This document shows, piece by piece, positions 130 through 15,595 of a DNA stretch of 45,303 bases. Positions within the stretch are counted from its first letter, which is position 1. Every line of letters starts with the position of its first letter. The notes below the pieces were generated by a model. It made no database searches and was not told the DNA's origin. It saw only the letters and a list, made by a program, of their open reading frames with translations. Source of the stretch: a virus; the IMG/VR virus record IMGVR_UViG_3300037137_002282, positions 1 to 45,303 of that record; one strand, 5' to 3'. A program made the position numbers and the translations under genes.

Positions 130-420
130 ACGTAAATTTGCATCGCTTGTTACGACCAGCCGATAAGCACAATCTCCCAGAAGTTTGGACCACCATGATA
201 GAGTGCCATCATAGGGCCGGGTAATAATATTTTCCGGGATGGGTGGAGGCGGTGGAACTAGGAGCTTTTTCTTCTGCGTATAAAATTTCTTTGCTCCGGA
301 TTTGGTTAGCTTGCGCGATGAATAATTCCTCCCGCCGACGGTGGAAAAATCCACTTTCCAACATCCGGGCTTGTACTCGACCGGCCCGGAAACAGCTAAA
401 ACCCCGCAGGATGGTCGCAT
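1..420 (-). CDS. terS: Small terminase subunit, N-terminal part (gene crosses window ends)
   Basis: Minus-strand frame starting ATG at 420 and open to base 1; it continues through the circular junction and ends with TAA at 45121-45123, giving about 157 residues. The role, recognition of viral DNA for packaging with the large subunit, is inferred from position: it ends 50 bp inside the start of terL and is the first gene after the predicted late promoter at 535-563. Visible features are a basic N-terminal half, a run of five prolines near residue 60, and a helical Ala/Gln/Glu-rich second half ending in an acidic tail. No clear helix-turn-helix was recognised and the Shine-Dalgarno is weak, so a GTG at 354 is an alternative start. 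Confidence 0.6.
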   Translation of the reverse strand, partial: MRPSCGVLAVSGPVEYKPGCWKVDFSTVGGRNYSSRKLTKSGAKKFYTQKKKLLVPPPPPIPENIITRPYDGTLSWWSKLLGDCAYRLVVTSDANLRQDIRAIAQAAMSAKNLYDTAQIERDFAELKNFVEEKMSEQDTE

Positions 421-432
421 TTCGCTTTAAGA

Positions 433-457
433 CTCGTCAAAAAACGTTGAATTCGAG
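433..457 (-). other. Weak hairpin before terS
   Basis: On the minus strand CTCG and TCAA pair with TTGA and CGAG around a short loop, with a 3-nt bulge, ending 13 nt before the terS ATG. Bases 455-462 could instead pair with the start of the late transcript (GAG-CA bulge-CUAUU). This is a weak echo of the stronger leader structures elsewhere in the genome. Bases 464-534 between here and the late promoter hold nothing else that I recognise. Confidence 0.25.
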
Positions 458-534
458 CTATTGTTAAACCGCAGGCCACCTAAGTTCCCGATACCCCTAC
501 CCTTTTTATCAACCTCAAATAGTGCTCTATTATT

Positions 535-563
535 AGTATGTTATGTGGGGTGAATCTTGTCAA
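535..563 (-). promoter_or_regulatory. Predicted late promoter
   Basis: Minus strand: -35 TTGACA (558-563), 17-bp spacer, -10 CATACT (535-540). It lies about 115 bp upstream of terS and faces the whole virion gene cluster. The -35 region carries the small palindrome CTTGTCAAG and shares AATTCTTGAC with the early divergent promoters, so a common regulator is possible. The 4/6 match of the -10 box makes it a moderate prediction. Confidence 0.55.
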
Positions 564-579
564 GAATTATTTTCTTTCC

Positions 580-874
580 TTGCCACGCCCTGCCATGCCC
601 TGCCATGCCCGTCCGGTCCGTTCCACTCCCATCCCATCCGCTCCACTCCGCGCCTGCCGATCCAGTCCCCTCCTCTCCACTCCCATCCGATCCAATCCAC
701 TCCGCGCCTGCCGATCCGCTCCCCTCCCTTCCTATCCCCTCCGATCCAGTCCGCGCCTGCCTCTCCAGTCCCCTCCGATCCATTCCCATCCGGTCCATTC
801 CGCGCCTGCCGCTCCAATCCGGTCCGATCCACTCCCCTCCAATCCCATCCGATCCAGTCCGCGCCTGCCGATCC
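580..874 (-). repeat. Degenerate GGA pentamer array 1
   Basis: From 611 to 874 the plus strand is built of NTCCN pentamers (NGGAN on the transcribed minus strand) in blocks of 8, 9, 8, 8 and 10, each block followed by a 9-nt linker CGCCTGCCG (once ending in T), and then a final ATCC. All 43 complete pentamers keep TCC, whereas both outer bases vary freely. Linkers start 54, 49, 49 and 59 nt apart. A lead-in at 580-610 has a 10-nt period (CTGCCATGCC). The array begins exactly at the stop codon of the 874-1332 gene and ends just upstream of the late promoter. No stops arise in most frames, so open frames here are not evidence of coding. Confidence 0.95.
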
Positions 875-1332
875 TATGCTGCTTTCTCTTGCAACATCAG
901 CAATTGTTGCAACACAATTTCCAATTCGTCACGCAACTTCAAAATATCACAGACCCCCCGCGATCTCTCCAACGCTGCCCGAACACGCGTTAATTCATCA
1001 TTCAAAATCTCATGTGCCCATTCCTTGTTTTTTTTTGCGCGATCCATCGGCACATAACCTCGGATATCTTTCGTGATCGAAACTGAAGCATAGTTTGGAC
1101 ACTCCAGTTCCGCCCGCGTGATCGTTTCAATGTATCGCACCTCTCGAATCAGTTCTCGCGCCACATCGAGCCGATGGGCATTGGCCGCTTTTTGATCATC
1201 CCACTCAAACCGCTCATGCAGCGGAGATTTCGGATTTCGCGCATCGTTGACCACCGCTTGCGGAGTTAGATAGCCCTTCTTTTTCTCCAACTCGTACAGT
1301 CTGGTTGCGAGTGCTTTTTGTTTTGCAGTCAT
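874..1332 (-). CDS. Conserved phage protein, unknown function
   Basis: A 152-residue mostly helical protein. Its start overlaps the preceding stop as ATGA at 1329-1332, so it is translationally coupled to the 270-residue protein upstream. The N-terminal part has the pattern LTPQAVVNDARNP then SPLHERFEWDD and AANAHRLDVARELI, which I recall from hypothetical proteins of many unrelated phages; no function is established. The C-terminal 60 residues look like a coiled coil (charged heptads, then leucine/glutamine-rich). Its stop codon touches GGA array 1. DNA metabolism or a structural RNA/DNA-binding role are both possible; the sequence does not decide. Confidence 0.8.
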   Translation of the reverse strand: MTAKQKALATRLYELEKKKGYLTPQAVVNDARNPKSPLHERFEWDDQKAANAHRLDVARELIREVRYIETITRAELECPNYASVSITKDIRGYVPMDRAKKNKEWAHEILNDELTRVRAALERSRGVCDILKLRDELEIVLQQLLMLQEKAA

Positions 1333-2141
1333 ATCGTTGCCTCCATCGCAGCCCCTTTGTCCTTCCCATTCCCGCGAGAAATGTTACGTGCCTTGGTTGT
1401 TTCATTGTACCATTCGAACAGTTCTCTGCTCTCTTGGTCGTAAAAATCTGGAGTCTCCAATGCGGCGAGTTGTGCTTTCCTTCCACCGTTTTTCATAATG
1501 GCCAGATATTTTGGGTCTGAAGATTTTACCGCCTCCCATGTACCAAAATTTCCAGCGCCCTTGCCCGGCCTCTTCTCTCCTATACCACGAATGAACCCCG
1601 CCAACTGGAGGAGTTTAACCGTCTCCTTCTCGTTCAGGATAGGCATTAAATATTGAATCCGCAAATGACACGCCCAGTGAGGAATAATTGCGCGAGTACG
1701 AATGTCTGGTGCTCTTGTTTTGCCAGATTGCTTTACCGCGTCCATGTGCAGCATGGGGACACCATATAGAGCGATTCGTTCCTCTGGCGCGGTGATAAGT
1801 CGCTCCAATTTTGTTTTTTCCAGAGATGTGGGCATGTCCAAGGCTACCGATGCCATAGCATGCTTGATAGAACAGGCGACGAGTTGTATTTCCGTCGGTC
1901 CCTTAGGATCTTTATCACGATAGCAAGATGCGCGATATTCTTCTAGCGGATCATGTTTTAGACTTGTCTTCTTCTCGGTTTCTGTTTTTCTCCCTTTGGG
2001 CAAAAGCAATTCGTGTCGTGCTTTCTCACTCAGTCTGTTGAGGAGAATTGGGGACGTTCCGATTAAAAAGACCTCTATCTCTCCTCGCTCCAAAATAGAA
2101 AACTCCAAAATCTGTTCTTTCTCTACTTTTTTCATTGCCAT
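1329..2141 (-). CDS. Conserved phage protein with Gly-rich C-terminal motif, unknown function
   Basis: 270 residues. The ATG at 2141 is chosen because GGAAGAGG lies 7 nt upstream; the frame stays open to 2324 only because it runs through GGA array 2. The middle holds SPILLNRLSEKA, and the C-terminal region reads RTRAIIPHW...LRIQY...LLQLAGFIRGIGEKRPGKGAGNFG. I recall this ending (LLxLAGF-GIGExRP-FG) from a widespread phage family that usually lies beside homologues of the next gene. The glycine-rich loop is reminiscent of RAMP/Cas7-like RNA-binding folds, but that is inference only. It is transcribed from the promoter at 2521-2548 through a structured leader and the array. Confidence 0.8.
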   Translation of the reverse strand: MAMKKVEKEQILEFSILERGEIEVFLIGTSPILLNRLSEKARHELLLPKGRKTETEKKTSLKHDPLEEYRASCYRDKDPKGPTEIQLVACSIKHAMASVALDMPTSLEKTKLERLITAPEERIALYGVPMLHMDAVKQSGKTRAPDIRTRAIIPHWACHLRIQYLMPILNEKETVKLLQLAGFIRGIGEKRPGKGAGNFGTWEAVKSSDPKYLAIMKNGGRKAQLAALETPDFYDQESRELFEWYNETTKARNISRGNGKDKGAAMEATI

Positions 2142-2412
2142 TGTTTCGCCTCTTCCGTTGGTTGGTTGTTGTTCTAAATCCGTCCCATCCGGTCCAATCC
2201 CTTCCTGCCTCTCCGGTCCAATCCGGTCCAGTCCATTCCGCGCCTGCCGCTCCTTTCCTTTCCCCTCCTCTCCCCTCCAGTCCCCTCCGCGCCTGCCGAT
2301 CCCTTCCGTTCCGCTCCGCTCCACTCCGGTCCGGTCCAGTCCGGTCCGCGCCTGCCGATCCGGTCCGGTCCAGTCCGCTCCAGTCCTTTCCCATCCTCTC
2401 CACTCCTGCCAT
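2026..2412 (-). CDS. Possible array-encoded Gly/Arg/Trp-rich peptide
   Basis: An ATG at 2412 follows AAGGAG (2417-2422) by 4 nt and lies 17 nt after the structured leader, the same geometry as the first genes of the other early transcripts. The frame runs 128 codons through the GGA array and overlaps the start of the 270-residue gene in another frame. Because any frame of NGGAN repeats reads as G-x-[DE]-[RGW]-x without stops, openness alone means little. It could be a leader peptide, a low-complexity protein, or an accident. Confidence 0.25.
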   Translation of the reverse strand: MAGVERMGKDWSGLDRTGSAGADRTGPDRSGAERNGRDRQARRGLEGRGGERKGAAGAEWTGPDWTGEAGRDWTGWDGFRTTTNQRKRRNNGNEKSRERTDFGVFYFGARRDRGLFNRNVPNSPQQTE

Positions 2413-2421
2413 TCCGCTCCT
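2182..2421 (-). repeat. Degenerate GGA pentamer array 2
   Basis: Same design as the array at 611-874: NTCCN pentamers on the plus strand in blocks of 4, 6, 8, 10, 9 and 2, separated by 9-nt linkers. Three linkers are exactly CGCCTGCCG (2240, 2289 and 2348) and two are variants (TTCCTGCCT, CTCCTGCCA). The exact linkers are 49 and 59 nt apart. All 39 pentamers keep TCC. It occupies the 5' untranslated region between the promoter at 2521-2548 and the ATG at 2141. Both arrays have the same orientation and flank a two-gene unit. Confidence 0.95.
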
Positions 2422-2429
2422 TCAATAAA

Positions 2430-2510
2430 TTCTCGCCCCTCTGCGCGGATCCGACGAAGAAAACACGCAAAGCGGCGAGAAACTGTTTAAAAACGGAATT
2501 CGTCGGATCT
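2430..2510 (-). ncRNA. Structured leader S (interleaved inverted repeats)
   Basis: Minus strand, beginning about 12 nt after the -10 box. Segment A (GATCCGACGAA, 2509-2499) is perfectly complementary over 11 bp to A' (2458-2448). Segment B (TTCTCGCC, 2481-2474) is perfectly complementary over 8 bp to B' (2437-2430). The order A-B-A'-B' makes an H-type pseudoknot in which the RNA 5' end pairs with the hairpin loop. An AAGGAG-ATG follows within 18 nt. Three other early promoters show the same design. Confidence 0.55.
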
Positions 2511-2520
2511 AACAGCTACA

Positions 2521-2548
2521 CTTTTAGCATGCTCCCCAAAAAAGTCAA
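2521..2548 (-). promoter_or_regulatory. Predicted early promoter PS
   Basis: Minus strand: -35 TTGACT (2543-2548), 16-bp spacer, -10 TAAAAG (2521-2526). It lies just beyond the SSB stop codon and would start RNA near 2514, carrying the structured leader, the GGA array and the two conserved phage genes. Confidence 0.5.
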
Positions 2549-2550
2549 GC

Positions 2551-2937
2551 CTAAAACGGAATATCTTGATCATCGAGCGGCGGAGCTTCTTCTTGCCTCT
2601 GACCTCCGCTGTCACTCTTGCCTCCGAGGAAAATAACCTGATCGGCAACGATTTCTGTCACATAACACTTGCGGCCATCCTTATCGTAAGATCGAGTTTG
2701 CATCCTGCCCTCGATGTAGCATTGCTTCCCCTTGGTCAGATATTTTGCACATGCTTCCCCCTGTTTACCCCATACAACTAGCTTAATCCATTGAGTATCT
2801 TCTTTTTTTGCTCCTCCGCCATCAACCCATTTCCTGGTACAGGCTATTGAAAAATTACATACCGAGGTTCCCCCGGATGTAGTTTTTAACTCTGGATCTT
2901 GTCCTAAGTTTCCAATAAAACAACACTTGTTCAGCAT
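2551..2937 (-). CDS. ssb: Single-stranded DNA-binding protein
   Basis: 128 residues with the bacterial SSB pattern: N-terminal OB fold starting MLNKCCFIGNLGQDPEL, the central WIKLVVWGKQGEACAKYLTKG and YIEGRMQTRSYDKDGRKCYVTEIVADQV strands (to about residue 105), a short Gly/Ser/Gln linker, and an acidic tail ending DDQDIPF, the peptide by which SSBs recruit partner proteins. It covers single-stranded DNA at the replication fork and would act with the primase-helicase encoded 3 bp upstream and with the Erf protein. It is the last gene before the promoter and leader that begin the next transcript. Confidence 0.95.
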   Translation of the reverse strand: MLNKCCFIGNLGQDPELKTTSGGTSVCNFSIACTRKWVDGGGAKKEDTQWIKLVVWGKQGEACAKYLTKGKQCYIEGRMQTRSYDKDGRKCYVTEIVADQVIFLGGKSDSGGQRQEEAPPLDDQDIPF

Positions 2938-13590: not shown

Positions 13591-13859
13591 GGAGATCCCG
13601 CGAAGGAGCTTTCAAAATAACCCGCCTCGCAAATGACGGCGAAATGATGCTGACCTTTCACCTCATTGTCGAGGTGAGCTACACTCCGGTGGAGGATGGT
13701 CTCTTTAACATTGAGGACATCCGGCTAGAGCATGTTGAGATCGAAATGGTTACCAACGAAGACGGCGTTGAAATACCAGCAGAAGATCCGCTTGTGCCAC
13801 GGTTGAAAGAGCTGGCAATGACATACGATGAGATGGAAGATTTTTTAGGAGGATGCTGA
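13587..13859 (+). CDS. Small acidic protein, unknown
   Basis: 90 residues; ATG 13587 overlaps the previous stop (ATGA) and has GGGAGG 8 nt upstream. It begins with a basic, strand-rich part (FKITRLANDGEMMLTFHLIVEVSY) and becomes strongly acidic. No family was recognised. It is coupled to the Ala-rich protein gene by TGATG. Confidence 0.65.
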   Translation: MRRSREGAFKITRLANDGEMMLTFHLIVEVSYTPVEDGLFNIEDIRLEHVEIEMVTNEDGVEIPAEDPLVPRLKELAMTYDEMEDFLGGC

Positions 13860-14575
13860 TGGAAACCGCGTGGCATTTTTGCGTTGGAACCGACAGGCCT
13901 TTTCTGCGCGATGGTTCTCCGTTTGAGGTGGGCAAATGGTATGAGCATTCCGGCGAGTTGATCATGTGCAAGGCGGGATACCATGCGAGTAGTAGAATTT
14001 TGGACGCGCTTGAGTATGCCCCAGGAGTATGGGCTTGCATGGTGGAAATCGATGGGGAAATAAAACGCGATACAGCTAAATTGGTGTGCTCGCGAAGAAG
14101 GGCGCTATGGGCATTTAATGCTGCCGACGTGCTAATACAATTTTCACGAGAACAAGCGGCAGGAGTTTTACACCTGTGGGATGCTCCACAAATTGTGAAA
14201 GATTATTTGGTCACGGGCGATGAGGATTTGAGGGCTGCCGCCGGGGATGCCGCCGGGGCTGCCGCCGGGGCTGCCAGGGATGCCGCCTGGGATGCCGCCG
14301 GGGCCGCCAGGGCTGCCGCCAGGGCCGCCAGTGCCGCCTGGGCCGCCAGTGCCGCCAGTGCCGACTGGGCCGACTGGGCCGCCTGGGCCGCCTGGGCCGC
14401 CTGGGCCGCCTGTGCCGCCAGTGCCGCCAGTGCCGACTGGACCGCCTGGGCCGCCTGTGCCGCCAGTGCCGTCAGTGCCGACTGGGTCGCCAGGGCGGCC
14501 AGTGCCGCCAGTGCCGCAAATCAAATGCTGGAGGGGATGATTTTATTCAAGGCATCGGAGCGAGGGCTGCTTTGA
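13859..14575 (+). CDS. DUF7666-like protein with long Ala-rich repeat domain
   Basis: About 238 residues from ATG 13859, chosen because AGGAGG is 6 nt upstream (the ATG at 13853 is too close). Residues 1-115 (WHFCVGTDRPFLRDGSPFEVGKW...YHASSRILDALEYAPG...VLHLWDAPQIVKDYLVTGDEDLRAA) match a domain I know from many phage and bacterial proteins that almost always carry Ala-rich repeats after it. The repeat domain (about 125-222) is an alanine helix with regular Trp, Ser, Asp and Arg (AAW, AAS, ADW triplets). Function is unknown; HExxH or other catalytic motifs are absent. Confidence 0.8.
   Translation: METAWHFCVGTDRPFLRDGSPFEVGKWYEHSGELIMCKAGYHASSRILDALEYAPGVWACMVEIDGEIKRDTAKLVCSRRRALWAFNAADVLIQFSREQAAGVLHLWDAPQIVKDYLVTGDEDLRAAAGDAAGAAAGAARDAAWDAAGAARAAARAASAAWAASAASADWADWAAWAAWAAWAACAASAASADWTAWAACAASAVSADWVARAASAASAANQMLEGMILFKASERGLL
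14230..14517 (+). repeat. GCC-rich tandem repeat inside the Ala-rich gene
   Basis: GCCGCC-TGG/AGT/AGG and GCCGAC-TGG units repeat with 9-nt and shorter steps, almost always using GCC for alanine. The uniform codon choice shows expansion at DNA level. Shifted frames give collagen-like Gly-Pro-rich frames on both strands, which are by-products. Confidence 0.9.
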
Positions 14576-14811: not shown

Positions 14812-15143
14812 AAAAGAAAGTTGCACCGAAGAGAACCGCAAAGAAAAAACCACTACTGGCCATTCTGGCGAATAAAAGCTATGGGCTATATTTTGGCGAG
14901 GTGCTGTCGTTCGACGCTGCCAACGGAGTGGCGGCGGTCAAGGATTGTTGCCACGTATGCCGCTGGTTTGGTCGAACGGGGGGGATCACCAGCTTGGCCG
15001 CGTACGGTATTTGCGGCCCGCGCATGGGAGAAAGCAGGATAGGGGCTCCGACTACGCAACCCTCGACCCTAACCGGGATAGTGAACATTTTTCCTTGCAG
15101 CGAGGAGGCGGTGAGAAGTTTTGACGCTGTAAAACCACAATGA
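14808..15143 (+). CDS. DUF6948-like conserved phage protein
   Basis: 111 residues; ATG 14808 has GAGAGG 6 nt upstream and overlaps the previous stop. After a lysine-rich start, the pattern SYGLYFGEV...KDCCHVCRWFGRTGGITSLAAYGICGP...RIGAP...LTGIVNIF is a small conserved phage domain (DUF6948 as I recall it). Function is unknown. It overlaps the Gly-Tyr/Ser repeat gene by ATGA. Confidence 0.75.
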   Translation: MKKKVAPKRTAKKKPLLAILANKSYGLYFGEVLSFDAANGVAAVKDCCHVCRWFGRTGGITSLAAYGICGPRMGESRIGAPTTQPSTLTGIVNIFPCSEEAVRSFDAVKPQ

Positions 15144-15595
15144 GCAATATGGATAATGGCTATGGCTATGGCTCTGGCTCTGGCTATGGCTATGGCTCTG
15201 GCTCTGGCTATGGCTATGGCTCTGGCTCTGGCGATGGCTCTGGCGATGGCTCTGGCTATGGCTCTGGCTATGGCGATGGCTATGGCTATGGCTATGGCTA
15301 TGGCTATGGCTATGGCTCTGGCTGTGGCTCTGGCTCTGGCTATGGCTATGGCGATGGCTCTGGCTCTGGCGATGGCTCTGGCTCTGGCTCTGGCGATGGC
15401 TCTGGCTGTGGCTCTGGCTGTGGCTCTGGCTCTGGCTCTGGCTCTGGCGATGGCTATGGCTATGGCTCTGGCGATGGCTCTGGCTATGGCTCTGGCTCTG
15501 GCGATGGCTCTGGCTATGGCTATGGCTATGGCTCTGGCTCTGGCTCTGGCTATGGCTATGGCGATGGTGATGGCGATGGTGATGGCTCTGGCTAA
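15140..15595 (+). CDS. Gly-Tyr/Ser/Asp dipeptide-repeat protein
   Basis: 151 residues: MSNMDN and then only Gly alternating with Tyr, Ser, Asp or occasionally Cys, to the stop. ATG 15140 overlaps the previous stop, as do its neighbours. Such a chain would be disordered, hydrophilic and prone to phase separation or tyrosine-mediated adhesion; I recall similar Gly-rich chains in other phages beside DUF7666-like genes. No catalytic function is possible. The alternative frame of the same DNA is discussed in the findings. Confidence 0.65.
   Translation: MSNMDNGYGYGSGSGYGYGSGSGYGYGSGSGDGSGDGSGYGSGYGDGYGYGYGYGYGYGSGCGSGSGYGYGDGSGSGDGSGSGSGDGSGCGSGCGSGSGSGSGDGYGYGSGDGSGYGSGSGDGSGYGYGYGSGSGSGYGYGDGDGDGDGSG
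15158..15592 (+). repeat. (GGC NNT)n hexanucleotide array
   Basis: About 70 units of GGC followed by TAT, TCT, GAT or TGT. GGC is invariant except for a couple of GGT units near the end. One frame reads Gly-x; another reads Met-Ala/Leu-Ala and is continuous with the endolysin frame; the minus strand reads Ser-His/Gln. Confidence 0.95.

Follow-up and report, generated by a model that had tools for sequence, protein, structure and literature searches.

The two pentanucleotide arrays and adjacent genes found in a 45,303-nt viral sequence (the whole stretch of DNA analysed, hereafter the window) very probably form a VIPR locus with a GGA core, in which the arrays would serve as vrRNA guide arrays. 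This assignment follows from the link between GGA arrays and the Vipr protein family, together with a profile match to PDB entry 36pp and the published description of the system. VIPR (Viral Interference Programmable Repeat) was described in a 2026 preprint as a phage-borne CRISPR relative composed of a RAMP protein (Vipr, gene vipr), a small accessory protein (gene vap) and vrRNAs, occurring mostly in phages and prophages (PMC13142463). In the main text of that work, vrRNAs consist of alternating GGY/NN, with 9-16 YNNGG repeats and then a structured 3' tail; DNA is recognised through the NN dinucleotides, which follow a one-base-skip code, and rival phages are the main targets that the system represses (PMC13142463).

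Arrays and genes of the locus

The locus lies on the minus strand, with the transcript order ssb (2937-2551), array 2 (2179-2420), vipr homolog (2141-1329), 152-aa gene (1332-874), array 1 (587-869) and another small gene. Both arrays are intergenic (GGANN)n sequences resembling vrRNAs, and flank the two co-oriented genes. Array 2 is upstream of vipr; array 1 is made up of roughly five guide units, each with 8-11 GGA cores, and has a GGC-core stretch (587-610) on its RNA 3' side. Read on the opposite strand, array 1 has 43 NTCCN pentamers, a count that takes in only pentamers already matching NTCCN, and array 2 has 39. These counts and the array positions agree with an initial annotation of this DNA, which had described a core held between free flanks: the inner positions were T/C/C in 82/82 run pentamers, and all four bases occurred at both outer positions (22 G/11 T/27 C/22 A on one side and 31 G/24 A/18 C/9 T on the other). 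The longest uninterrupted core runs were 10-11, whereas 200 first-order resamplings of the window gave runs of no more than 4 cores; the arrays are therefore far beyond chance.

When walked whole on the RNA strand, array 1 comprised 58 GGN steps (43 GGA and 15 GGC), with step lengths of 5 nt (52 steps) or 4 nt (5 steps), and array 2 comprised 50 (41 GGA, 8 GGC and 1 GGG). Non-GGA cores were placed at 4-nt slips, except for five GGC cores of array 1 in its GGC-rich 587-610 end. Thus, the core is GGA within units and GGC at unit boundaries and at that end. Units are separated by GGCAGGCGC, in which a 4-nt slip (GGCA) precedes a GGC core. This minus-strand punctuation, CGGCAGGCG (pattern CGCCTGCC[G/T]), was present in array 1 at 651-659, 705-713, 754-762 (the copy ending in T), 803-811 and 862-870, with spacings of 54, 49, 49 and 59, exactly as annotated initially, and in array 2 at 2241-2249, 2290-2298 and 2349-2357. 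The GGCA slip recurred in GGA-containing relatives (L070 and L362) and in the GGC arrays of phages UmaThurman and BobaPhett, which suggests a unit-boundary signal common to GGA and GGC arrays.

Coding sequence was considered and rejected for the arrays. Open frames over them are trivial, because with a period of 5 every frame runs through one and the same codon cycle, and the TCC strand cannot hold a stop. Rfam gave no match across window positions 400-2700, no structured 3' tail was recognised beside the arrays, and neither promoter nor terminator scans rose above chance level. A perfect 11-bp inverted repeat (GATCCGACGAA/TTCGTCGGATC, 40-nt gap) between ssb and array 2 (2448-2509, no strand assigned) is a possible operator or control region.

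The product of the vipr homolog (270 aa, 1329-2141) belongs to PHROG 4652, a family of unknown function. The profile of its family matched PDB 36pp_D ("SUSP1 Vipr protein") with E = 2.1e-39, and the next match, Csm5, was weak. Single-sequence phmmer did not reach 36pp from the window protein, which is too diverged for such a link, and the relationship was therefore tested with split profiles. Among 54,599 ORFs, a profile built from the window side only found the Felix-O1-like ortholog at 2.7e-13, and one built from the SUSP1-like side only found the window protein at 1.2e-4; hhalign of the two profiles gave a probability of 99.6%. PADLOC reported weak Csm3/Cas6 matches for single family members. 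The AlphaFold (AF2) model had a pLDDT of 83.6, and its Foldseek matches were Csm3/Cas7 RAMP subunits (best E=3e-6). Invariant Gly and Arg residues were present near the C-terminal end of the domain. Profile searches and predicted fold thus place the 270-aa protein in the Vipr RAMP family.

The second gene (874-1332, minus strand) is assigned to PHROG 15946 and has a 4-nt overlap with the vipr stop; both genes are open. Its 152-aa product was modelled as mostly helical (AF2 pLDDT 86.6), with no fold match in PDB. Members of this family are kept beside vipr homologs in many loci of unrelated phages, and by this position the gene is probably vap.

Window genes with family matches were phage replication, recombination and structural genes, and BLAST of the region against phages gave no match. 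Two other repeats were observed on the plus strand of the window. A hexanucleotide array (15140-15595, about 73 copies, GGCTNT-like) is part of an ORF whose product has a long Gly-X repeat, with X mostly Tyr, Ser or Asp, and a 9/36-bp GCCGCC-rich repeat (14231-14517) inside ORF 13853-14575 encodes an Ala-rich segment that also contains Trp, Asp, Arg and Ser.

Relatives found by array and by protein

The initial annotation had proposed a regular-expression search of other genomes. Pattern scans of IMG/VR for pentamer arrays revealed the same array anatomy in dozens of unrelated viral contigs, with, for example, 199 pentamers in one locus (L116) and five arrays in another (L355). In these array-selected loci, GGA was mostly on the coding strand of flanking genes, in agreement with the assignment of GGA to the transcribed strand in that annotation, and no locus had arrays on both strands. 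Arrays commonly begin just past one stop codon and end shortly before the next start. Clustering of neighbour proteins, made with no prior expectation, placed homologs of the 270-aa protein from 29 loci in one family and homologs of the 152-aa protein from 13 loci in a second; a third small family replaces the latter in some loci. By profile searches, the Vipr family was encoded in 43/51 GGA-array loci, a set that includes near-copies and therefore represents fewer independent cases. Among the other eight loci, three (L113, L346 and L353) are on the same contig as a positive locus, L358 has the family elsewhere in its record, and L341, L350, L404 and L412 gave no Vipr match in their searched records. 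Rfam searches of 12 loci detected one unrelated c4-type RNA and nothing else.

Loci were also chosen by protein rather than by array, using tblastn against cultured phages. Vipr homologs were detected in phages of Mycobacterium (BobaPhett, LittleE and prophiBWHA-1), Gordonia (UmaThurman, Ecliptus and Trine) and Pseudomonas (LESphi2 and Medea1), in Felix-O1-like phages, in Listonella phage phiHSIC and in cyanophage Cy-LDV1, where the homolog adjoins a match to the 152-aa family. NN-variable pentamer arrays lie beside the gene in these phages (weak arrays only in prophiBWHA-1 and Medea1) and have GGC/GGY cores in all but phiHSIC, whose arrays (L469 3611-3900) have a GCA core (GCANN) rather than GGN. 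Sixteen further protein-selected loci from sampled bacterial genomes had GGC/GGY arrays, some of them weak. In total, 27 of the 28 classifiable protein-selected loci were GGC/GGY, one was GCA and none was GGA, and GGA therefore looks like a minority class of VIPR cores. The nearest protein relative by scan (L464) is at a contig end, with no array visible.

These searches place VIPR loci in cluster F mycobacteriophages, Gordonia phages, LESphi2, phiHSIC and Cy-LDV1, in array regions that are unannotated or overlain by hypothetical genes. The genes numbered 40 of UmaThurman (L460 4634-4957) and Trine (L466 3585-4388), both hypothetical, lie over pentamer arrays and are possibly spurious gene calls. 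The cassette was found inside structural-gene regions in LittleE (L467) and phiHSIC (L469), on the opposite strand in both, and in Ecliptus (L461), a placement like that of a mobile moron module. Linkers containing stretches similar to a tRNA T-arm (GGTTCGAnTCC) were observed in the arrays of a further locus (L417) and between arrays in LittleE (L467 4127-4492) and prophiBWHA-1 (L471 2660-2760); the T-arm-like linkers had no Rfam match.

Array-unit turnover, core base and alternative explanations

Two near-identical phages were compared. The 3' flanks of L116 and L342 were identical at 990/1000 positions, whereas their arrays were different: three consecutive units were identical, and the others were recombined or new. 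Cores other than GGA, among them AGA, GGG and GAA, were few, and core substitutions were rarer than flank changes, a comparison that the initial annotation had proposed as a check. Array units turn over whole, like guides. For the pooled NN of 169 guides, codon positions 1-2 of the same contigs gave a better fit than a phase mixture, the difference being 30 lnL units (contig bootstrap 2.6 to 58). If the wobble base is the one skipped, such a fit would be expected, and the NN composition of the GGA class is consistent with a wobble-aligned skip. Within-guide phase coherence was not significant. An exact search of viral contigs with three window guide patterns gave 0 matches, and a local scan of 172 guides across the collected loci, with skips 0-3 and controls, revealed no skip-1 enrichment over controls. 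No target was found for the window guides, and the one-base-skip rule is therefore unproven for the GGA class.

On the Vipr tree, GGA and GGY labels interleave, and well-supported branches force at least 5-6 changes. GGA rows of the tree came from array-based collection and GGY rows mostly from protein-based collection, which biases the frequencies, but the interleaving is independent of this. No Vipr residue tracked GGA versus GGY across independent pairs. We tentatively suggest that VIPRs with a GGA core represent a variant not previously reported, whose protein-bound scaffold base has changed between pyrimidine and A on several independent occasions. In this reading, RNA-protein pairs would not cross-react with those of GGY systems, and guide units would be bounded by GGCA slips. 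If so, not only the guides but also the scaffold of the code would be changeable. As the window locus and about 40 further contigs show, the GGY scaffold described in the preprint main text is not universal, and GGA is widespread in uncultured phages. The preprint recognises seven VIPR types with GGY/NN "or a related consensus" and also describes staggered and other array forms (PMC13142463); its wider wording could take in a GGA core, which the supplement may already include.

What was directly observed comprises the anatomy and orientation of the arrays, their association with homologs of Vipr and Vap, RAMP homology with the predicted fold, and unit turnover in relatives. For vrRNA transcription, binding of RNA, the one-base-skip code, targeting of DNA and a role in inter-phage conflict, our model relies on analogy with the preprint system. 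The cassette array 2 - vipr - vap - array 1 would be transcribed in this order, its arrays being read as noncoding RNA of (GGANN)n units split by GGCA slips. Vipr, a single-domain RAMP, would coat this RNA, probably at one subunit per pentamer and with the GGA core held by the protein, and successive NN would pair with DNA of the form NNxNNxNNx... The complex, assisted by Vap, would then repress genes of competing phages or prophages. GGA is probably a protein-bound scaffold and the NN flanks are probably information-bearing guide dinucleotides. A protein-bound scaffold had been among the options of the initial annotation, and such a scaffold on RNA is possible; the specific proposals of that annotation were not supported, and free NN as guide information was missed.

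The many GGA motifs on the transcribed strand had also suggested a sponge RNA titrating a host CsrA/RsmA-type GGA-binding regulator. The CsrA motif is ANGGA. However, this motif was not enriched in the arrays, where A starts only 11/72 inter-core dinucleotides, the strict 5-nt period is not set in hairpin loops as in CsrB-type RNAs, the cores of homologous loci are GGC, GGY or GCA, which would not bind CsrA, and the conserved neighbour gene encodes a RAMP rather than CsrA. A sponge is thus very improbable. An ordinary, functionless tandem-repeat (microsatellite) expansion, for which TRF reports period-5 tandem structure over the arrays, has next to no credibility: slippage would copy the flanks too, whereas here all 82 cores were held between near-random flanks, the arrays occur in dozens of unrelated phages with the Vipr family in most array loci, and core substitutions were rarer than flank substitutions in relatives. 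The argument of the initial annotation against microsatellite decay is therefore upheld.

An array derived from VIPR could instead be decaying, or reused as a binding scaffold (e.g., for regulation of its own operon) without targeting in trans. The lack of a target for the three window guides, the short units (8-11 cores) and the unrecognised tail would fit this reading, but cores are intact in every unit, both genes are open, GGA arrays elsewhere turn over like guides and the NN statistics look coding; we consider it unlikely. Nothing found in the analysis supports a replication or recombination landmark. A G-quadruplex landmark and TRAP-like ring binding were set aside on the basis of RAMP homology and the VIPR preprint. 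A VIPR locus of GGA-core form remains our preferred explanation.

Comparison with known systems

CsrB/RsmZ-type sponge RNAs resemble the window arrays in having many GGA motifs per RNA; however, they present GGA in hairpin loops and have no strict 5-nt period, whereas the window arrays have such a period and a RAMP as protein partner. TRAP-binding leaders contain GAGNN repeats, with a triplet core and two free spacer bases per repeat as in the window, but the TRAP protein is unrelated and its NN carry no targeting information. Class 1 CRISPR RAMPs (Csm3/Cas7) have the same fold as that predicted for the window Vipr, and the invariant Gly and Arg are common to both. Class 1 CRISPR systems have repeat-spacer arrays, in contrast to the pentamer arrays of the window, where a tandem-repeat scan detected no repeat-spacer array and the neighbourhood examined contained no other cas genes.

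VIPR is the closest in anatomy, and the preprint casts it as a noncontiguous DNA-reading RNA-guided system and a possible CRISPR ancestor (PMC13142463). Compared with its main text, the core is GGY in VIPR but GGA within units of the window (82/82), GGC being confined to boundaries and the array-1 end; vrRNAs have 9-16 repeats, and the window units have 8-11 cores in continuous arrays split by GGCA slips; and the structured 3' tail of vrRNAs was not recognised in the window. VIPR systems (with SUSP1 Vipr, PDB 36pp) and the window share a RAMP gene, a small neighbour gene, a phage setting, coding-strand orientation and flanking intergenic pentanucleotide arrays with a fixed triplet and hypervariable NN.
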